A stretch of DNA of 64,000 bases from Brevundimonas fontaquae (GTDB lineage Bacteria > Pseudomonadota > Alphaproteobacteria > Caulobacterales > Caulobacteraceae): positions 620,001 to 684,000 of the forward strand of contig NZ_CP070968.1 in assembly GCF_017086445.1 (NCBI RefSeq), read 5' to 3'. Of this stretch, positions 45,070 through 63,708 are shown in pieces. Numbering within the stretch: the first letter of the stretch is position 1; each line of letters begins with the position of its first letter. The notes under the pieces were generated by a model. That model made no database searches and had not been told where the DNA came from. It was given only the letters and a program-made list of their open reading frames with translations. The position numbers and the translations under genes are program-made.

Positions 45070-45120
45070 GGGGTGCCGGAGCGGCGGGGATGGACCCCGT
45101 CGCCCGGTAGGAGAGACCTC

Positions 45121-47223
45121 ATGGCCGACCGCATTCCCGTTATCACCCCCACAGTCCCGACCGCAGAAACCACGACCCCGGCCGTCATTTTCACGCCCGT
45201 GGAACGCATCGTCCGCCTCGGGGACCTCGGCATCGCGCGGGAGAACCTGCGCTACGGCGAACCGCCGGACGAGGACATCCCGACCCTGGCCGCCACCCTG
45301 AAGGCGGCTGGCCAGTTGCAGCCCGTCACCGTTCGCCCAGGTCGCGGCAAGAAGGAGCAGGCGTTCATGGCACTGGACGGCCGCCGGCGTCGCCTGGCCT
45401 TGGCGCTTCTGCTCGAGGCCGGCGACATCGACGAGGACTATCCGGTCCGGACCTATGTCGAGACCGATCCGGCGCGCCAGGCGGCGGCGGCTCTGCTGAC
45501 CAACACCGCCGTTCCGGTCCATGTGGCCGATGTCATCGCCGCCATTGGCCGGATGCTGAAGTCGAAACTGACGATAACGGCCATGGCGCGGGCGCTCGGT
45601 TATGACGAGATCGAGATCAAGCGGCTGGCCGCCCTGTCCGGGGTGGCGCCGGCCGCCCTGGTCGCGCTGAAGGCGGGACGCATCACGCTTCGCCAGACCC
45701 GGCTGCTGGCGCGCCTGCCGGATCGACAGGAGCAGGAGGACATCGCCCAGATGACGCTGGACGGCCAGGGCTTCCAGGAGTGGCGGGTCAAGGAGCGGCT
45801 CGACGACAGCCGGGTCACGACGCGCGATCGCCGCTGCGCCCTGGTCGACCTTCGTGCCTATGCCGACGCCGGCGGGCGCACCGAGACCGATCTGTTCGGC
45901 GAACTGCCGCCGGTCCTGCTCGACCCGGACATTCTGACCGAGGTCTGGACCCGTCGCGCACGCGCGATTGCGGCCGTGTTCGAGGCCGAAGGGATCGCGG
46001 TCCACGTGACCGCCGGCCCGGAACCCGAACTGCCCGACGATCTGCAGCCGCTCGGCTATGTTTATGGCGGTTCGCTCCCGACCGAGGAGATGGCGGGCTA
46101 CCGGGCTCAGCGCGACGTCTATAACGGACGGGTCGAGCAAGCCCGTCTGGCTCTGGAGGACAAGGATCGACCGGATGTCGCCGATCTCGCCATCGTCGAC
46201 ATGATCCACGCCAGGCTCGCGGCCGATCAGACCGGCTGCGGCGGCCGGGTCGTGACCACCATGGTGATGTGGCCGGCTACGGGGGCGGGCGTGGAGGTTC
46301 GCTGCTATACGCCGGACGAGCCCGAGATCGAGAATGACGAAGACCTCGACACCGAGACCGCGCGACGTCCTTCGGCGCCGCCGGCCTATGTCCCGCCGGA
46401 AGTCGAGGCTCCGGAGCCGGAGACACAAGGCGTCAACCATGCCCTGCACGCCGTGCGGACCGATGTAGCGACGCGCGGTCTGATCCGCGCCTTGGCCGAC
46501 GATCCCGGGGCGGCGCTGACGGCCTTGATCGCCCGGCTGTTCACCGTCCTTGTCCGGCGCGCCCATGTCGCGCGCACGGACTCGGCCCTCGCCATCACGG
46601 CCAGCGGGTTTAATCCGGCGAATGGCCGCGTCATCGAGACCCTGGACGGCGACGTTCGGCGACGGCTCGACGATCACCGCACCGCCTGGGAGGCGTCCGG
46701 CGAAACCGTCATCGCCTGGGTCCACGGCCTTGCCCACGGCGAGAAGATGGGACTGCTGGCGGAACTGACCGCCATCAGCCTCGATGTTCGCGAGGAAAGG
46801 ACCTTCTCGATCCGGCGCAGCGCCCGGGCCGAGGCGGCGGAACTGGCCGCGCTGTGCCAGGCGGACATCACCTTGCACTGGACGCCCGACGCCCCCTTCC
46901 TGCAGCCGCATTCCAAGGCGCTGTTGACGGGGATGCTCGAGACCATGGGCACCGAGGACGAGCGGGCAAAGACGCTCCGCAAGACCGAGCTGGTCGATTG
47001 GGTGGCTGAACAGGCCGCGCAACGGAGCTGGGCTCCGGCCGCCCTGTCCTGGGCCGCTCCGATCGATGCCGAAAGCGTCCCGGACGCCCAGAACATCGAG
47101 AACGATGACGATGTCCTCGCGGCCGGAGGAGAAGGGAGCGAGGTCGATGAGGACGACGAAGGGGCCGGGGCCTTCGCCGTCACACCGGCTGGCGAAGCGG
47201 CTCTGGACTCTGCCGCCGCCTGA
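45121..47223 (+). CDS. Large ParB/Spo0J-like protein
   Basis: The 700-residue protein has a ParB N-terminal CTPase-like domain at ~27-100 (VERIVRLGDLGIARENLRYG, then FMALDGRRRRLALALLL), a KorB/HTH-like segment at ~130-200 and a long C-terminal part with an acidic tail. It is much longer than chromosomal ParB (about 300) but like element-borne ones. It is presumably a DNA-binding maintenance or regulation factor, not a simple partition protein; no ParA is adjacent. A terminator follows. Confidence 0.87.
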   Translation: MADRIPVITPTVPTAETTTPAVIFTPVERIVRLGDLGIARENLRYGEPPDEDIPTLAATLKAAGQLQPVTVRPGRGKKEQAFMALDGRRRRLALALLLEAGDIDEDYPVRTYVETDPARQAAAALLTNTAVPVHVADVIAAIGRMLKSKLTITAMARALGYDEIEIKRLAALSGVAPAALVALKAGRITLRQTRLLARLPDRQEQEDIAQMTLDGQGFQEWRVKERLDDSRVTTRDRRCALVDLRAYADAGGRTETDLFGELPPVLLDPDILTEVWTRRARAIAAVFEAEGIAVHVTAGPEPELPDDLQPLGYVYGGSLPTEEMAGYRAQRDVYNGRVEQARLALEDKDRPDVADLAIVDMIHARLAADQTGCGGRVVTTMVMWPATGAGVEVRCYTPDEPEIENDEDLDTETARRPSAPPAYVPPEVEAPEPETQGVNHALHAVRTDVATRGLIRALADDPGAALTALIARLFTVLVRRAHVARTDSALAITASGFNPANGRVIETLDGDVRRRLDDHRTAWEASGETVIAWVHGLAHGEKMGLLAELTAISLDVREERTFSIRRSARAEAAELAALCQADITLHWTPDAPFLQPHSKALLTGMLETMGTEDERAKTLRKTELVDWVAEQAAQRSWAPAALSWAAPIDAESVPDAQNIENDDDVLAAGGEGSEVDEDDEGAGAFAVTPAGEAALDSAAA

Positions 47224-47388: not shown

Positions 47389-50175
47389 ATGTCCAAGACC
47401 CGCAACCTGTCCCTGTTCGCTGACGCCGCCACCGGGGATGCTCCGGCCAACATCCTGGCGGCCGCCCGTGCCCTGACCGTCCACCTCGCCCGGTCCCGCC
47501 CGCTGGATCGACGCCTCGTGGCCGAGGTGATGACCACCGCCTTCGGCGCATCCGACGCGGAAGGCGGCTGGACCTGGCGGGACGCCTATGACGCCATAGA
47601 GGCGGCGACAGTCCTCCAGATCCGCCGCCTCGGCCCGCAGGTCGCCCGGCTCGAGGACGCCCCGGCCGAGATCGCCGCTCTGCTCGCCGGGGTCTCAGCG
47701 CTTGGCCTGACCCACAGCCGGCGCAGCGAGGAACAGGTCGCGCTGGACCAGTTCTCCACTCCGCCCCAACTCGCCGCTCTTGCGGTGCTGGCGGCGCAGG
47801 TCCGACCGGCGGACCGTGTCCTGGAGCCGTCGGCGGGGACCGGATTGCTGGCCGTGGTTGCGGAAGCGTGCGGGGCGAGCCTGACGCTGAATGAGCTTGC
47901 GCCCACGCGCGCCGCACTCCTCGACGGGCTGTTCGCCGGGTTGACGCGCCGGCGGCACGACGGCCGCCATCTAGCCGACCTCCTTGAGGACGCCGGGTCG
48001 TTCGACGTCGTGGTCTGCAACCCGCCCTTCTCGGATCTTCAGGCGCATTTGATTGCGTCGCTCAAGGTTCTGGCGGACGGCGGCCGGATGGCGGCGATCG
48101 TGCCCCTCACCGCCCTTGCCGACACCGATTTGAGGCGGGAGCTCGAACGACATGGCGTCATGGTGGCCGCCGTGGCGTTTCCCGCACGCGCTTTCGCCAA
48201 ACACGGCACCTCGGTCGAGACCGGCCTGCTGGTTATGGATCGCGGCGGGACAGCCGTCTGCGATGGCCTCCTTCACCAGCCCGAAGATCTGGAGGCGACC
48301 GCCCGGATCCTCGCGCGCCTTCCGGATCGTGGCACCGCTCGTCCGCGCGTGCGGTTGACGTTGGACGCCGCCGCCTTCCTCTCGCCGCGCGAGCGCGGTC
48401 TCGCCCTCCCCATCCATCTGATGGAGGCGGTCGAGGATGACGACGGGAACGTCACCATGGTCCCGGTCATGGATGAGGGGCGGCCCGCCGTCAGCCAGGA
48501 GGCGCTCGTCCTGCGTGAGGCCCTGATCGAGCGGATGGCCTGCCTGCCCGCCGTTCCGGGTGTGCTCGACGCACTGCTGGAGGCTTTCGGCACGGACGCC
48601 GTCGCCGAGATCACCGGGCGGTCACGCCGGGTGGTGGTGCGCGACGGGCGTCGGTTGGTGGAGCGACGCGGCGCCTCGGCGGCCCGGGCCGAGACCGACG
48701 CCTTTATGTCCGGTCGCAAGCGGGTGCTGATCTTCTCTGACGCTGGCGGCACCGGGCGCAGCTACCATGCCGATCTGTCGGCTCCGAACCAGCAGCGGCG
48801 GGTGCACTATCTGGTCGAGCCGGGCTGGCGGGCCGACGCCGCCATCCAGGGCTTGGGCCGCAGTCACCGCACCCACCAGGCGTCAGCGCCGCTGTTCCGC
48901 CCGGTCACCACCGACATTCAGGGCGAGAAGCGGTTCACCTCGACGATCGCCCGACGCCTGGACTCCTTGGGTGCCCTCACGCGCGGGGAGCGACGCACCG
49001 CCGGTGCGGGCCTCTTCCGGGCCGAGGACAATCTGGAAAGCCCTTGGGCGCGCCGCGCCTTACTGGTTTTCTACGGCGCGCTCGCCTTCGGAGAGCTGGA
49101 CTCGATGACACTCGAGACCTTCATGGCCAGGACGAGCCTGAGGCTGCTCGATGACGACGGCGGGCTCAAACCTTCCGATGACCTGCCGCCGATCCATACC
49201 TTCCTCAATCGGCTGCTGGCGCTGCGCATCGCCGACCAGAACGCCCTGTTCGCGGACTTCGACCGCATCCTGTCGGGCATACTCGAACGCGCCGCCGCCT
49301 CGGGTGATCTGGACAGGGGCCTGGAGGACATCGAGGCCGAGGCGCTTGAGGTCACGGACCAGGAAACGATCCGGACCGATGTGTCGACAGGGGCCGAGAC
49401 AGCGCTTGTGACCTTCTCGCTCAAGGTCCGGCGCGAGATCCTCGTCTCTGACGATGCCCTGACCTGGGCGGAGGATGTCGCCCACCAGCTGGTCATTAAC
49501 GAGAAGTCCGGCCGGGCGGCGATCGCCGAACTGGGCCTGACCACATCCACGGAGGAAAACCGCCTGATCACCGCGGTGAGGCTTGTTCGTCCCGATGATC
49601 GGCAGACCATGCCCGAGAAGACATTCGCGGAATCCGCGTGGAAGCCGGCGGACAAATCGGACTGGTGTCGCGTCTGGGACGAGGAGGTCGCCCGCACCGA
49701 CCCTTGGCGGACCCGCGAACTCACCTTGGCCACCGGTCTATTGCTGCCGATCTGGGGGCGTCTGCCGGCGCGGGGCTGTTCCGTCCGTCGCGTCCGGGCA
49801 CCGGACGGGCGCCGCTGGCTGGGGCGGGTGTTGGACGCCGTCCAGGCCCTCACGCTCAAGACGAGCCTTGGCCTGACCGACGTCGCCGAAGCCTGGGCGG
49901 ACGGCCCGAAGACCGCCGCCACGATCCTGGACCGCAACGTCCAGCTCTCGCTCGAGGGCGGGCTATGGCTCAAGCGGGCGCGAGTGATGGACCGCTGGCG
50001 CATCGAGGTGGTGGGCGGTCGGACGGATCGTGACGTCCTCGTCGCGCTCGGCTGTTTCGTCGAGATCATCGCCTTCACGCCACGGGTCTTCATACCGATC
50101 GATCGACCGACCGTGTTGGAAGCGGTCCTGCGCCGTCATCCCGTTCAGACGGCCCTCGACCGGCAGGCCGCCTGA
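47389..50175 (+). CDS. Strawberry-notch-type methylase/helicase lacking the first helicase lobe
   Basis: The 928-residue protein has an N-terminal methyltransferase fold with VLEPSAGTG (~144-152) and NPPF (211-214), then the SNO C-terminal helicase domain (IFSDAGGTGRSYHAD at 448-462; QGLGRSHRTHQ motif VI at 487-497) and the SNO tail. Typical relatives are about 1400 residues because an ATP-binding lobe with Walker A (GTGVGKGR-like) and DE-H motifs lies between. Here methylase sequence passes directly to the C-lobe (MEAVEDDDGNVTMVPVMD) at ~350; no Walker A is present. The frame is intact, so this is an in-frame loss. Confidence 0.87.
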   Translation: MSKTRNLSLFADAATGDAPANILAAARALTVHLARSRPLDRRLVAEVMTTAFGASDAEGGWTWRDAYDAIEAATVLQIRRLGPQVARLEDAPAEIAALLAGVSALGLTHSRRSEEQVALDQFSTPPQLAALAVLAAQVRPADRVLEPSAGTGLLAVVAEACGASLTLNELAPTRAALLDGLFAGLTRRRHDGRHLADLLEDAGSFDVVVCNPPFSDLQAHLIASLKVLADGGRMAAIVPLTALADTDLRRELERHGVMVAAVAFPARAFAKHGTSVETGLLVMDRGGTAVCDGLLHQPEDLEATARILARLPDRGTARPRVRLTLDAAAFLSPRERGLALPIHLMEAVEDDDGNVTMVPVMDEGRPAVSQEALVLREALIERMACLPAVPGVLDALLEAFGTDAVAEITGRSRRVVVRDGRRLVERRGASAARAETDAFMSGRKRVLIFSDAGGTGRSYHADLSAPNQQRRVHYLVEPGWRADAAIQGLGRSHRTHQASAPLFRPVTTDIQGEKRFTSTIARRLDSLGALTRGERRTAGAGLFRAEDNLESPWARRALLVFYGALAFGELDSMTLETFMARTSLRLLDDDGGLKPSDDLPPIHTFLNRLLALRIADQNALFADFDRILSGILERAAASGDLDRGLEDIEAEALEVTDQETIRTDVSTGAETALVTFSLKVRREILVSDDALTWAEDVAHQLVINEKSGRAAIAELGLTTSTEENRLITAVRLVRPDDRQTMPEKTFAESAWKPADKSDWCRVWDEEVARTDPWRTRELTLATGLLLPIWGRLPARGCSVRRVRAPDGRRWLGRVLDAVQALTLKTSLGLTDVAEAWADGPKTAATILDRNVQLSLEGGLWLKRARVMDRWRIEVVGGRTDRDVLVALGCFVEIIAFTPRVFIPIDRPTVLEAVLRRHPVQTALDRQAA

Positions 50176-52263: not shown

Positions 52264-52335
52264 CCTTGTGGCGGGAGGTGAAGGCAGGACGGCGCGGGGG
52301 TGAGCCGATCGGGTTCGTCAGCCTCGGAGCTTCCC

Positions 52336-52800
52336 ATGACTGCCTCTGCCTGGACCGATGACCGCATCGGTCGTCTGAAGAAACTCTGGCTCGAGGGCCA
52401 GACCGCCGCGCAGATCGCGCGCGATCTCGCCAATGGCATCACGCGCAGCGCCGTGCTCGGCAAAGTCCATCGCATGGGTCTGTCGGCCGGCCGGTCCGGC
52501 CGTCCGCCCAAACGACCCGACGCCGGTCCAAAGCCGCCAACCTTCGCACCGACCAGGTCCCTGGCGGCCCGGCCGATTGACGCTCCCCCCGAGGTCGCAA
52601 AGCAGCATGGGCTGGCCACAGTTCTCTCGGTTCGGCGCTGCCAGTGCCGCTGGCCTTTCGGAGAGCCCGGCGCCGCTGACTTCAGTCTGTGCGGTCAGCC
52701 GGTCACGCGCGGAGCCTTCTGTGCCGTGCATGCCGCCGTCGCCTATCGGCCGGCGGCGGACACGCCCCGCATCCTCGATCGGCTGGCGCGGCTTGACTGA
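52336..52800 (+). CDS. GcrA-family cell-cycle regulator, element-borne
   Basis: The 154-residue protein has the GcrA N-terminal DNA-binding domain (WTDDRIGRLKKLWLEGQTAAQIARDLANGITRSAVLGKVHRMGL) and its C-terminal cysteine-rich part (CRWPFGEPGAADFSLCGQPVTRGAFCAVHA). GcrA in Caulobacterales works with sigma-70 at promoters methylated at GANTC sites by CcrM. A copy on a mobile element could tie element genes to the host cycle. It has its own terminator at 52843-52878. Confidence 0.92.
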   Translation: MTASAWTDDRIGRLKKLWLEGQTAAQIARDLANGITRSAVLGKVHRMGLSAGRSGRPPKRPDAGPKPPTFAPTRSLAARPIDAPPEVAKQHGLATVLSVRRCQCRWPFGEPGAADFSLCGQPVTRGAFCAVHAAVAYRPAADTPRILDRLARLD

Positions 52801-55546: not shown

Positions 55547-56791
55547 ATGCTGATCCGGAACGAGATCGACGGGCGAGTTTCCGCCGGCTCCGGCCAGGTT
55601 GCCGACGCCGTGCGGATCGGTCTGCCGCTGTCCCTCAAGACCGAGCGGATGAACGTCAAGAACGGCATGCTCAAACGTCTAGCGAGCTCGAAAGCCTTCG
55701 CCCTGGGCAACCGGTCCGGGGTGCTCAAGGCGGCCCAGAATCGGTCAGGCCGCGCCTTCCGGCTGGACGTTCGCCAGAAGGTGATCGTCAAGGCGCTGGT
55801 CTCGCGACACATGGGCAAGGGCGCCGATCGGGCAGCCGCGCTCGCCAAACATATGGCCTATCTCGGACGTCAGGGCGTCGGCGTCGAAGGCGAGCGGCCG
55901 GAGTTTTTCGACCGATATGTCGATGGCGTCCTGCCCGGCGTCGAGACCGAAGGCTGGAGCGAAGACCGCCATCATTTCCGTTTCATCATCTCGCCCGAAC
56001 ACGGGGAACGGCTCGATATGAAATCCTATGTTCGCGAGGTCATGGGACGGGTCTCGGCGGACCTCGGAGAGCCCAATCTGAGATGGGTGGCGACCTGCCA
56101 TTTCGACACCGATCAACCCCATGCCCATGTGCTCGTTCGGGGGCGTCGCGAGGATGGCCGAGACCTCGTCATTCCGCGCGACTACATCGGCTATGGGTTT
56201 CGCGCACGGGCGCAGGAAGTGGCCCAGGAACGGCTGGGGGATCTCTCGCGGGTAGAGGCCGAACGGCGCATCTGGAAAGAGACCGAGGCCGACCGTTTCA
56301 CGGGGTTCGACCGGCGGCTGATCTCGGAGACGGACAAGATGGGGATGGTCGATGACGGGGTCGGATCGACCGACGCCTGGGCGGCTCTGACGCGGGGGCG
56401 GCTAAGGCACCTGGAGCGACTCGGCCTCGCCACGCGAAGCGGGCGACGGTATCGGCTGGACGGCGAAATGGAGACGAAACTGCGCAGGCTTCAGGTGCGG
56501 CGCGACATCATCCGTACCCTCAATCAGCGGCGGCTGGAGGGTGCGAGAGATGTGCGGGTTCTGGGGAAGGACAACGTGCGGGGTGTGGTCGTGAAGACTG
56601 GGTTTCATGATGAGGCGGGGGCTTCGCCATGGGCGGTGGTGCGAGATGGATCGGGTGTGGAACACTACGCCAGGCTTCGGACGGGGCACGTTGGCGTTCG
56701 TCTAGACCAGGGCGTGACCCTGGTTCCATCGACGAACGGCGTCGCTCAACTTATTGTCGGCAAAGGAGCGGACCTGAGCTGCGGCAGTTAG
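55547..56791 (+). CDS. DUF3363-type relaxase, short version
   Basis: The 414-residue protein has the relaxase histidine motif CHFDTDQPHAHVLVRGR (~184-200) and FRFIISPEHGERLDMKSYVREVMGRV, then the DUF3363 start (VGSTDAWAALTRGRLRHLERLGLATRSGRRYRL). It nicks oriT and leads the strand into the recipient. GGAGGA precedes the ATG. Relatives I recall are about 600-690 residues, so the C-terminus may be shortened. Confidence 0.87.
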   Translation: MLIRNEIDGRVSAGSGQVADAVRIGLPLSLKTERMNVKNGMLKRLASSKAFALGNRSGVLKAAQNRSGRAFRLDVRQKVIVKALVSRHMGKGADRAAALAKHMAYLGRQGVGVEGERPEFFDRYVDGVLPGVETEGWSEDRHHFRFIISPEHGERLDMKSYVREVMGRVSADLGEPNLRWVATCHFDTDQPHAHVLVRGRREDGRDLVIPRDYIGYGFRARAQEVAQERLGDLSRVEAERRIWKETEADRFTGFDRRLISETDKMGMVDDGVGSTDAWAALTRGRLRHLERLGLATRSGRRYRLDGEMETKLRRLQVRRDIIRTLNQRRLEGARDVRVLGKDNVRGVVVKTGFHDEAGASPWAVVRDGSGVEHYARLRTGHVGVRLDQGVTLVPSTNGVAQLIVGKGADLSCGS

Positions 56792-59120: not shown

Positions 59121-60540
59121 ATGAATCGCTTGAGTCTATTGTCCGGCAGCGCGATCGTCGCCTGCGCCGTCGCCATCAGCGCGACGGCCTGTGCTCAGGA
59201 TGCGCGTGAGTTCAACATACCCGCAGGCTCGCTGCGCGATGCGTTAAACCTGTTCGCCACACAGTCCGACCAGCAGATCCTTTTCTCCGGCGATCTCGTG
59301 GCTGGCCGCACGACGCCGGGTCTGACGGGACGCTTTGCGCCTCGTGACGCTCTCGATCGACTCCTCGCTGGCTCTGGGATTTCCTGGTCGCAAGGTCGGC
59401 CGGGCGTCATATTCCTGCGGCGTTCGACCGAAACCCTGGCGAACACAGAGACCGTAACCGCGCTTGAGGACATCATCGTCACGGGCACGCTGTTGAAGCG
59501 CTCCGGCGACCTCGCTTCGCCGGTCGTCGTGTTCGACCGCGACGCCCTTGACCGCCGGGGATTCGGCACCGTGGCGGAGGTTTTGACCGACCTCCCGCAA
59601 AACTATGCGGGGTCCGGCACACCGATCGTGCAGATGACCGCTTCGGATCGCCAGGGATCGAATGCCGTCAATGCGACGGGCGTCAATCTCCGCGGCCTGG
59701 GACCGGCCTCCACCCTGACCCTCGTCAATGGCCGACGGGTGGCGGGGACGGGCTTCCGGGGCGAGTTCGGTGATGTATCCGCGCTTCCGTCCGCCGCCGT
59801 AGAGCGTGTCGACGTCCTGCTCGACGGCGCTTCCGCCCTCTACGGCGCGGACGCCGTCGCTGGGGTCGTGAACGTCGTCATGCGACAGGTTTTCGACGGC
59901 CAGGAAAGCCGGGCGAGAGTCAGCCTCGCCGAAGGCGGTGGCGAGGACGTCATTGTCTCGCACCTTGCGGGCCGGTCATGGTCCACCGGTTCGGCCTATC
60001 TGTCGTATGAATACCAGACCTCGAACCCGCTGAGCTCGCTGGATCGCAGCTATACGGCTACGGGAGACTTGCGGCCGTTCGGTGGAACGGACCATCGCGC
60101 GCTTTACAGTGCGCCAGGGAACATCCTGTCCTTCAATCCGGCGGCGGGCGCCTATGTGGCCCAATACGCCATCCGGCCGAACGCCTCGGGCACGGCGCAG
60201 ACGGCCGCGGACTTTGTTGCCGGAGGGGCCAACCTCCAGGCGATCAGTCGCGGGGTCGATCTGACACCCAGCCTCGAACGCCACAGCGCTTACGGTCGAA
60301 TTCACCAATCGGTCGGGGATCGCCTCGAGCTGACGGCCGATGTGCGTTATAACCGCCGGACCTACGAGTTCGCGGGCGCGGCCAGTATCGGGGTTTTCAA
60401 CGTCACGCGTTCAAACCCCTATTTCGTCTCGCCGACAGGGGCGGCGTCCCACATCCTCGGCTATTCGTTCGCTGCCGATCTGGGCAATACGCGTCAGAGC
60501 GGCGCTTCGGAAAGCCTTGGCGCGCAGGTTGGCAGAGCCC
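59121..60540 (+). pseudogene. TonB-dependent receptor with STN domain, 3' half missing
   Basis: The start has a signal peptide and an STN domain (EFNIPAGSLRDALNLFATQSDQQILFSGDLV), then the plug (IVTGTLLKRSG, GVNLRGLGPASTLTLVNGRR, VDVLLDGASALYGADAVAGVVNVVM) and the first barrel strands. At ~60540 it passes into the antisense of the XRE gene, though the frame stays open to 61010. Receptors of this type are about 900-1000 residues; only about 470 remain, so no functional barrel can form. Confidence 0.87.
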
Positions 60541-60980
60541 TGCTCGAGCCAGTCCTGAGCCGGATCGGTACCACGCAGCGCCTCCGCCAGGTCTTCGAAC
60601 ATCCGGACGATGGCGGTGATGAGGGTCCGGCTGTCGAGGCGGCGGATATTCTCGCCCAGAAGGTGATCGAACTGCTCCAGCCCGATGGTGTAGATGGAGC
60701 CCATCTGGTTCTCTGCGCACCGCCTCGCGTGCTCGGGCGATCCGATCGCCACCGCCATCAGAATCGCCTGAGCATCGCTTCGCGTCGCGGCCGCGAAGCG
60801 ATGGATGTAGTCCAGGTTGAGCCGGGTTTCTCCGGCTTCAAAACGGGCGTATGTCCGGATGGCGATCCGCATGGCTCCGGCCGTTTCCGCCTTGGTCATC
60901 CTGCGGTAGCGGCGAACCGACTTCAGGGTCGCCGACAACAGCGCGCCATCATTGCGAAGTTCTGGCTCGTCTCGACTCAT
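60411..60980 (-). CDS. XRE-family regulator, 3' end fused to the receptor gene
   Basis: The N-terminal HTH (RYRRMTKAETAGAMRIAIRTYARFEAGETRLNLDYIHRFAAATRSD) is a standard XRE fold. The rest is a helical domain ending in TIGLEQFDHLLG... DWLEQGSANLRAK. The last ~40 residues are read antisense to receptor sequence, so the original C-terminus is probably lost. It stands at the junction of receptor and transfer genes. Confidence 0.8.
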   Translation of the reverse strand: MSRDEPELRNDGALLSATLKSVRRYRRMTKAETAGAMRIAIRTYARFEAGETRLNLDYIHRFAAATRSDAQAILMAVAIGSPEHARRCAENQMGSIYTIGLEQFDHLLGENIRRLDSRTLITAIVRMFEDLAEALRGTDPAQDWLEQGSANLRAKAFRSAALTRIAQIGSERIAEDVGRRPCRRDEIGV

Positions 60981-61208
60981 CCGCGCTGGCCCCTCCGTGA
61001 TCAGACGTAGAATCAGTCCGTCGGCTGATCAACGATCAGGTTTGTAGGCGTGTAAGAAAACAGGAGAATCGGCCATAAACCGACCTGTCTGACGGCAGCT
61101 TCCGACCGACGGGCGGACGATTTTCGTCACAGACGGATCACCGGCTCCTTCAACCCATTGGCGAGGCGTGAACAGCCGCCATAGTGGGCGTCGTCACTGG
61201 AGGCCGCC

Positions 61209-61836: not shown

Positions 61837-63708
61837 GTGTGGGCGCGGCTGACAGGATTGGCGCTCGGTCTCCTCGTGGGTGCCCAGGTGGCCACGGAGA
61901 TCTTCGCCTGGACCTACCAATGGGACCATGTTCTTGGGCCGGCCCTCCGACTGGGTGACGATTTTGCGCTCTATCCTCCCTGGGCCATCTTGAGATGGCG
62001 CGCCGCGTTTGGAGCAGAAGCCCAGGCGGCGATTTCCCGCAGCGCACCTTTGATTCTGCTCGGCGGCGTCGCGGGACTGGGGCTGGGGGCGATGATAGGC
62101 GACAAACCTCATCGACGTGTCCGGGGCTGGGGCGGTTTCAAGGACGCCAGGGCCGCCGGTCTGACGGCGGCTGGAGGCTGCATTCTCGGCATTCTCGGGC
62201 GAAAGGTTCTCGCCACAACCGACCTCCGGCCAAGCCTGGTGACCGGCGGCACCCGGTCGGGCAAGGGGCGTGGCCATGTCATGCCGACGCTGCTTTCCTG
62301 GAACGCGAGCGTCCTGGTCCATGATCCCAAGCGCGAGCTCTGGCGGTTGAGCAGCGGCTGGCGTGCCCGGTTCAGCCATGCGCTGTATTTCGATCCCCGT
62401 GATCCGGCATCGGCTTGCTGGAACCCCCTCGCCGAGATTCTGCCGGGGCCCGGAGAGCTCGCCCATATCCAGCGCCTGGTCTCGATCCTGTCCGACCCCG
62501 GCGGCGCCCGCGACGACGAGGCGATCTGGGACAAGGCGGCGTCGGAGATCCTCGAGGCGTTGATCCTGCACGTTCTCTACACGGCCGAAGATGACGACAA
62601 GACCCTGCTCAAGGTCCGTGAGATGCTCGCCGATCTCGACGCTGCCGCCGAGGTCATGGCACGGGCGCTGCACCGGCTCGGGCCCAGCGGAGAGCCGGAG
62701 ACCCACCCGTTCATCGCCACGGCGGTCAAGGGCTATGCGGCGATGCACGACCGCTTCCGCACCTCGGTTCAGGGGACGGCGCGCTCCTACCTCAAATGGC
62801 TCGCGGGCGAAGACATCGAGCGCTCCCTGTCCCGTTCGGATTTCTGCATGGGGGACCTGATGTGCGCCGAGGCGCCCCTGTCCCTCTACGTCCAGGTGGC
62901 GCCTGCCGATAGCGCCGCGCTGCGGCCCCTGGTGCGTCTCTTCTTCTACGCGGCCGCACAGTCCCTGACGATCCGCGAGACCGAGGCGGCCGATGGGCGG
63001 CCCAAGCGCCATAACCTGCTCATGCTGATGGACGAGTTCCCGCTGCTCGGTCGGGTCAGTTTCTTCGAGAAATCCCTGCGCCTCCTCAGCGGTTACGGCG
63101 TCAAGGTGATGTTCGTGGCCCAGTCGCTCAACGACATCGTCGAGACCTATGGCGTCAACAATACGATCCTCGACAACTTGCATGTCTACACGGCCTTCAG
63201 CGCGCTCGACCCCCTGACCCAGGACAAGGTCTCGAAGCTGACCGGGTCGGTGCTTGAGACCCGGACCAGCCGCAGTTCTCCGGCAGGTCTGGCGGCCGGC
63301 CGGAGCTCGGTGTCCCGCTCGCAGATCGAGCGACCGCTGCTGGAGCCTGGCGAGGTCCGGGCCCTGCCGGACGACATACAGTTGGTCTTCGCAGCCGGCG
63401 CTCGACCGCTGAGGACCACCAAGCTCCTCTATGATGTGCGCGAACCCTTTCGCACCCGGGCGCGCGACGTCGCGCCCGATCAGGTCGCCCGTCTGGATGC
63501 GCCGCCCGGAGCGCCAAACCCGTGGACGGGTCGCCGCAGTCTGGGCGAGAACGCCGAGGCCTCGCTTCCTCTGTTCAAGGAGGTGGCTGCGGCCATGGAC
63601 GACAAGAAGGTCGCGGCGCGTGTGGCCGATATCTACGGGCGTGTGGCGCAGGAAATGGCCGCACAGGATGCCGCGCTGGATCATTTGCGAGGACTGACCA
63701 ATGGCTAG
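61837..63708 (+). CDS. virD4: VirD4/TraG-type coupling protein
   Basis: The 623-residue protein has N-terminal membrane helices (~1-25 and 70-90, perhaps a third at ~108-125), Walker A GGTRSGKG (137-144), Walker B LLMLMDEFPLLG (~390) and VKVMFVAQSLNDI. It is the inner-membrane ATPase linking relaxosome and T4SS. The GTG at 61837 follows CCGGAG. Intact. Confidence 0.95.
   Translation: MWARLTGLALGLLVGAQVATEIFAWTYQWDHVLGPALRLGDDFALYPPWAILRWRAAFGAEAQAAISRSAPLILLGGVAGLGLGAMIGDKPHRRVRGWGGFKDARAAGLTAAGGCILGILGRKVLATTDLRPSLVTGGTRSGKGRGHVMPTLLSWNASVLVHDPKRELWRLSSGWRARFSHALYFDPRDPASACWNPLAEILPGPGELAHIQRLVSILSDPGGARDDEAIWDKAASEILEALILHVLYTAEDDDKTLLKVREMLADLDAAAEVMARALHRLGPSGEPETHPFIATAVKGYAAMHDRFRTSVQGTARSYLKWLAGEDIERSLSRSDFCMGDLMCAEAPLSLYVQVAPADSAALRPLVRLFFYAAAQSLTIRETEAADGRPKRHNLLMLMDEFPLLGRVSFFEKSLRLLSGYGVKVMFVAQSLNDIVETYGVNNTILDNLHVYTAFSALDPLTQDKVSKLTGSVLETRTSRSSPAGLAAGRSSVSRSQIERPLLEPGEVRALPDDIQLVFAAGARPLRTTKLLYDVREPFRTRARDVAPDQVARLDAPPGAPNPWTGRRSLGENAEASLPLFKEVAAAMDDKKVAARVADIYGRVAQEMAAQDAALDHLRGLTNG

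Follow-up and report, generated by a model that had tools for sequence, protein, structure and literature searches.

A strawberry-notch gene without its ATP-binding lobe on a conjugative element of Brevundimonas fontaquae, probably a young deletion allele

Methylase-helicase dyads have been described as systems in which a SNF2-like translocase moves an adenine methyltransferase along incoming DNA, marking or protecting it, and strawberry-notch members are named among them (PMC5512222). The same paper names the NPP(Y/F) motif of the adenine methyltransferase. In DarB of phage P1 and in the dyad of polyvalent proteins, which are carried by mobile elements, a methyltransferase with this motif is placed N-terminally to an SF2/SNF2-type module (PMC5512222), and the protein analysed here is arranged likewise. 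Its motor is incomplete, unlike that of DarB and the dyad, and for the full-length protein an antirestriction role is presumed. The mechanism of DarB has been termed undefined, and an effect of cloned darB was traced to plasmid DNA and not to the protein, which calls for caution on cloned-gene assays (PMC11109961). Among the papers listed for strawberry notch together with plasmid, bacterial elements appear only in PMC5512222, as judged from titles and the starts of abstracts.

The window, the whole stretch of DNA analysed here, comprises 64,000 nucleotides of the Brevundimonas fontaquae genome (G000; positions 620,001 to 684,000 of contig NZ_CP070968.1), and coordinates are counted from its first letter. 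The strawberry-notch (sno) gene without the AAA_34 lobe, located at 47389..50175 on the plus strand, was defined by its open frame, Pfam matches and alignment to relatives of 1420 aa. Translation gave 928 codons free of stops, in agreement with the original prediction that the frame is intact. Residues 1-340 (47389..48408, plus strand) comprise N-terminal helices and a class I SAM methyltransferase of N6-adenine type, assigned by Foldseek, pLDDT and an N6_Mtase match (PF02384) whose 22.2 bits are barely over the cut-off of 20.4. In the translated sequence, VLEPSAGTG is found at residues 144-152 (47818..47844, plus strand), NPPF at residues 211-214 (48019..48030, plus strand) and QGLGRSHRTHQ at residues 487-497 (48847..48879, plus strand). 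The C-terminal lobe of strawberry-notch proteins is present as a Pfam match to Helicase_C_4 (PF13871) at residues 392-647 (48562..49329, plus strand), with 314 bits over positions 2-271 of the 271 of the profile. No match to the ATP-binding lobe (AAA_34, PF13872) was obtained by Pfam in the 928-aa protein. String search located EPSAG (146), NPPF (211) and QGLGR (487) in the protein, and three strings of the Brevundimonas relative P0001, namely GDGTGCGKG (473), FDEAH (581) and SATGATT (626), are missing from it. We take EPSAG and VLEPSAGTG to be SAM motif I, NPPF to be the catalytic motif and QGLGR and QGLGRSHRTHQ to be motif VI, and the missing strings to be Walker A, the DEAH box and motif III, respectively. 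Both Pfam and the motif strings bear out the earlier claim that the methyltransferase and the C-terminal helicase lobe are kept and that Walker A and the DE-box are gone. Judged by its sequence, the protein is a shortened strawberry-notch homologue, incomplete as a member of the family, and the ATP-binding lobe belonging to the ATP-driven translocation of a dyad is missing. According to sequence and predicted fold, a methyltransferase of N6-adenine type is fused at its N-terminal side, the target base being a predicted one.

In P0001 (1420 aa), AAA_34 covers residues 386-712 (Pfam scan). The 928-aa protein is 93% identical to P0001 in alignment; the methyltransferase, the Helicase_C_4 lobe and the C-terminal region all align and the gene neighbourhoods are alike, whereas P0001 residues 341/342-832, including the entire AAA_34 lobe, have no counterpart. 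The alignment stops after residue 340 and picks up at P0001 832/833, so that one clean gap of 492 codons, in frame, separates the two proteins. A change at about residue 350 and a loss of about 450-500 residues had been predicted, and both position and size need small corrections. The distance between both edges is 1476 bp in six of the seven relatives measured, the anchor sequence having found no match in the seventh (L010). In L005-L008 the deletion edges are GCCCTTCCC and GCCTTTCCC, an imperfect repeat identical at 8 of 9 bases, and when the window was compared by BLASTN with five elements, intact or broken, the matches overlapped by 9 bases at the same place. This junction (48403..48411, no strand), defined by BLASTN against intact elements and by the edges in L005-L008, reads as the footprint of a short-homology deletion.

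A sno match was obtained in 43 of the 131 genomes of the genus, 120 of the 390 genomes of the family and 26 of the 290 genomes of the class. The halves are joined without the lobe only in the source genome within the genus, and among the matches listed for the family and for the class only this genome is without the lobe. Of 40 related loci in GTDB, a set that may omit records very near the source genome, 38 keep at least 325 of the 327 residues of lobe 1; in L080 (0 of 327) and L103 (137 of 327) the locus runs off the end of its contig, and the halves are joined in neither. A degenerate pattern of the junction gave 0 matches in GTDB r220 contigs and 0 matches in viral contigs, and records very near the source genome may be outside both searches. 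Furthermore, 647 plasmid records match sno, and among those listed (the 40 best and 60 spread over the 647, with records partly overlapping) all matches with at least 80% query coverage span at least 4.08 kb, leaving room for the lobe. On the basis of the genus, family, class, GTDB locus and plasmid comparisons, an architecture common to many relatives was rejected, and the many relatives sharing it together with a separately encoded N-lobe, which had been considered at the outset, were not seen.

Database relatives with E up to 0.001 number 7,872, and both PF13872 and PF13871 are present in 119 of the 120 that were listed. The exception is P0025 (781 aa, on a contig of 4,995 bases), whose junction is identical to that of the window and which equals the window protein at residues 48 to 807 before its frame shifts. 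Either it comes from the same strain, entered a second time with a sequencing error, or it comes from a nearly identical strain in which the frame is already broken. The search for the same junction elsewhere has therefore yielded this one database protein and none of the other genomes or loci listed. Broken sno copies of other kinds (pieces, frameshifts or stops) are found in six other genomes of the genus (G003, G045, G047, G079, G088 and G100), and loss of the gene is therefore common.

By AlphaFold2, the methyltransferase and the C-terminal region were modelled well, residues 21-310 being mostly above 84 pLDDT with one block at 74, and 18 ten-residue blocks of residues 371-550 are at 38-63 pLDDT. 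As a control, a homologue that has lobe 1 was modelled (67% identity over the part common to both; 68 and 60 rows in the alignments); of its 18 equivalent blocks, the leading 8 are at 79-92 pLDDT and the remaining 10 at 37-77. The structure prediction recommended earlier thus gave a divided answer, which is only suggestive of a lobe 2 modelled worse without lobe 1, since part of it is poor in the control also. The Foldseek neighbours of the methyltransferase include M.BseCI and M.TaqI alongside numerous other class I enzymes, with query TM-scores of 0.14-0.20, which are low because one domain matches; when solved structures were searched by sequence, two weak matches to L11 methyltransferases came up. 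Without lobe 1, the 928-aa protein would be unable to bind ATP between two lobes.

The gene is surrounded by a conjugative element that is colinear with elements of other genomes (BLASTN). Pfam detected RadC, Toprim and ParB-HTH genes upstream of sno, and the ParB-HTH-like gene (45073..47223, plus strand) is kept in the compared elements. After sno, there are PIN, DUF433, SSB and GcrA genes, followed by an RlxS-like relaxase (55547..56791, plus strand) and a TraG/VirD4-type coupling protein (61837..63708, plus strand), both full length by domain match and comparison with relatives. For the relaxase, TraG and each ORF at 63701-65094 and 75560-83622 (from the window start), a homologue aligns almost from end to end, and we take the ORFs in these two ranges to be a Trb-type region. 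Since the relaxase, TraG and the other compared transfer ORFs are full length, the element is not dead. There is a second deletion, of about 6.7 kb in comparison with G126 and G045, with its junction at about 60497-60516; a FecA-like TonB receptor gene (59121-61010), whose product has 989 aa in G126 and G045, is cut at about residue 471. The frame of the truncated receptor continues into unrelated sequence. From the deletions in sno and the TonB receptor and the full length of the compared transfer genes, the element is eroding in accessory genes and not in the transfer core, as far as compared. No tRNA was found in the window or in L035-L038 when these were searched for an attachment site. 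A GcrA-domain gene (PF07750) at 52300-52800 is close to the predicted adenine methyltransferase. GcrA is a methylation-linked cell-cycle regulator, so this gene and the putative methylase may couple the element to the regulation of its host.

With regard to selection on what remains, 30 intact relatives have 441 columns without variation, and the window protein differs at 3 of these; intact relatives, when left out one by one, differ at 0-10 of 441-451 invariant columns. The N:S on the G000 branch is 17:109, as compared with 20:86 for L005 and 25:133 for L009 (Fisher p 0.28 and 0.62, respectively; the counts are approximate for codons that changed more than once). Relaxed selection was thus found in the remaining codons neither by invariant columns nor by branch N:S, and this means either that the deletion is very recent or that the remnant still serves a function. 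Under an assumed neutral N:S of about 2.6 (2.2-2.7 for three transition weights) and with two comparison branches, at most about 3% of the G000 branch, or about three synonymous changes, could be neutral, so that the function, if lost, was lost recently.

Other shortened sno proteins were collected with lobe-less queries, for each of which about 8,000 candidates were scored and the best 120 listed; the queries were so short that proteins of 1420 aa lay beyond the length limit, and they are biased to lobe deletions. PF13872 is absent from P0228 (1003 aa) and P0169 (1083 aa) by Pfam scan and from P0293 (1053 aa) by precomputed domains, and is kept only in part in P0177, P0218, P0050 and P0051 (Pfam scan); P0200 has a gap at P0001 690-850 and P0235 at P0001 213-386. 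Like the window protein, P0228, P0293 and P0169 have an open frame from the methyltransferase to Helicase_C_4 over the missing first lobe, and P0177, P0218, P0050 and P0051 have an open frame over a shortened first lobe. The endpoints in these seven proteins are unlike those of the window protein, and endpoints vary between shortened sno proteins. As far as seen, the deletions have no common descent with that of the window protein, and P0228, P0293, P0169, P0177 and P0218 belong to clades about 41-47% identical to it. P0050 and P0051 have intact relatives (P0036 and P0047) at about 95% identity or slightly less, and their deletions are therefore recent too. P0203, in which sno residues 1-358 are joined to a GcrA domain, is consistent with another deletion that would reach into the downstream gcrA gene. 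Deletions starting after the methyltransferase recur in sno proteins; each case among the lobe-less query results consists of one or two sequences, and no lineage that inherits the lobe-less form was present there. Since the queries favour such deletions and protein databases contain open frames only, recurrence alone is no evidence of selection.

We regard it as quite probable that the gene is a young deletion allele in one strain, whose product makes no use of ATP and has at most methylation or DNA binding left, and the deletion is most likely a recent accident and not a new kind of enzyme. In the course of events we propose, a single illegitimate deletion joining two short near-identical DNA stretches would recently have removed 1476 bp and with them the ATP-binding lobe, staying in frame by chance, as one in three such deletions would. 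The protein would then be unable to hydrolyse ATP or to translocate; its methyltransferase would still fold and may methylate, and lobe 2, deprived of its partner lobe, would be passive or unstable. The antirestriction role presumed for the full-length protein would be lost or weakened, and the allele would be young and likely to disappear. Counted for the deletion allele are the short homology, the absence of PF13872, the rarity of the junction, the other broken sno copies of the genus, the second deletion in the element, a second sno fragment described below and the small neutral share of the branch allowed by N:S. Against it, this copy shows no positive sign of decay and its 3 differences of 441 also fit a working protein, the lobe-less open frames P0228, P0293 and P0169 are independent, the compared transfer ORFs are full length, and P0025 is at least one further record with the junction. 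The three options offered at first, namely a decaying element, a version working with another ATPase, and a pure methylase or clamp, have found partial support; decay is favoured, given that none of the other genomes and loci listed has the architecture and that the element has a second deletion, although the frame of sno is intact.

If the shortened protein were a stand-alone adenine methylase or a passive DNA clamp maintained by selection, its intact methyltransferase motifs, confidently modelled domain and lack of relaxed selection, with the remainder conserved as in intact genes, would be as expected, and the independent origin of the lobe-less open frames P0228, P0293 and P0169 points the same way. 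However, these independent cases are one or two sequences each and show no inherited lobe-less lineage, the searches favour lobe-less proteins in databases of open frames only, and lobe 2 is poorly modelled without lobe 1, though partly poor in the control too. We consider such a motor-free version unlikely, and similarly doubtful is the wider proposition that the sno motor is dispensable, with ATPase-free forms recurring by in-frame deletion and persisting under selection as adenine methylases or clamps. A protein working with an ATPase supplied in trans is extremely improbable: lobe 2 and motif VI are retained, but PF13872 has no match in the entire genome of 3,300,602 bases, the same search being positive in five of five control genomes, and no gene adjoining sno was recognised as a lobe-1 protein, which leaves unrelated ATPases as conceivable partners. 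A separately encoded N-lobe was rejected on this ground, and in this sense the original option of another ATPase is not supported. The second sno fragment in G000 (C1:1097453-1098358; L004:9454-10359) corresponds only to P0001 residues 1119-1420, at 72% identity. The ORF of this fragment carries an unrelated N-part, and the ORFs adjoining it resemble the leftovers of a different transfer region. That the junction near 48.4 kb is an artefact of sequencing or assembly is very unlikely; it does sit in a short repeat, but the window is free of N, and P0025, whose origin may or may not be independent, has the identical junction and the same sequence up to residue 807, which disposes of the assembly gap that had been feared. 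An imperfect repeat of nine bases does not have the length needed to lead an assembler astray.

The gene is a real and precise deletion allele within a known family, and probably a young one, its motor most likely being lost in one strain. If the shortened protein works, the methylating role would be separable from the ATP-driven role of the sno family, which is widespread on conjugative elements, as the number of matching plasmid records indicates, and little tested. If it does not work, the locus would be a clean case of accessory-gene loss by short-homology deletion with the transfer genes intact. Natural lobe-less alleles are ready material for asking what the motor does.

In seven loci that were chosen for a split sno match (L053, L054, L055, L106, L107, L108 and L109), which are plasmids of Sphingobium, Sphingomonas, Pseudosulfitobacter, Dinoroseobacter and Sulfitobacter, the sno genes are interrupted by tyrosine recombinase trios (RIT-like), and two insertion sites recur. 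The site at P0001 codons 719-722 is occupied in five of the seven loci (L053, L054, L055, L108 and L109) and that at P0001 codons about 823-825, with conserved REYVLDYL, in four (L053, L106, L107 and L109), both being occupied in L053 and L109. For RIT elements, no convincing target or binding site is reported in the available part of PMC3414803, and a literature search joining tyrosine recombinase with strawberry notch found no paper. It looks as if the trios target specific sites in a gene conserved on conjugative plasmids. The right deletion edge in the window (P0001 codon 832) is about eight codons from the trio site at codons 823-825, and this closeness is probably a coincidence.
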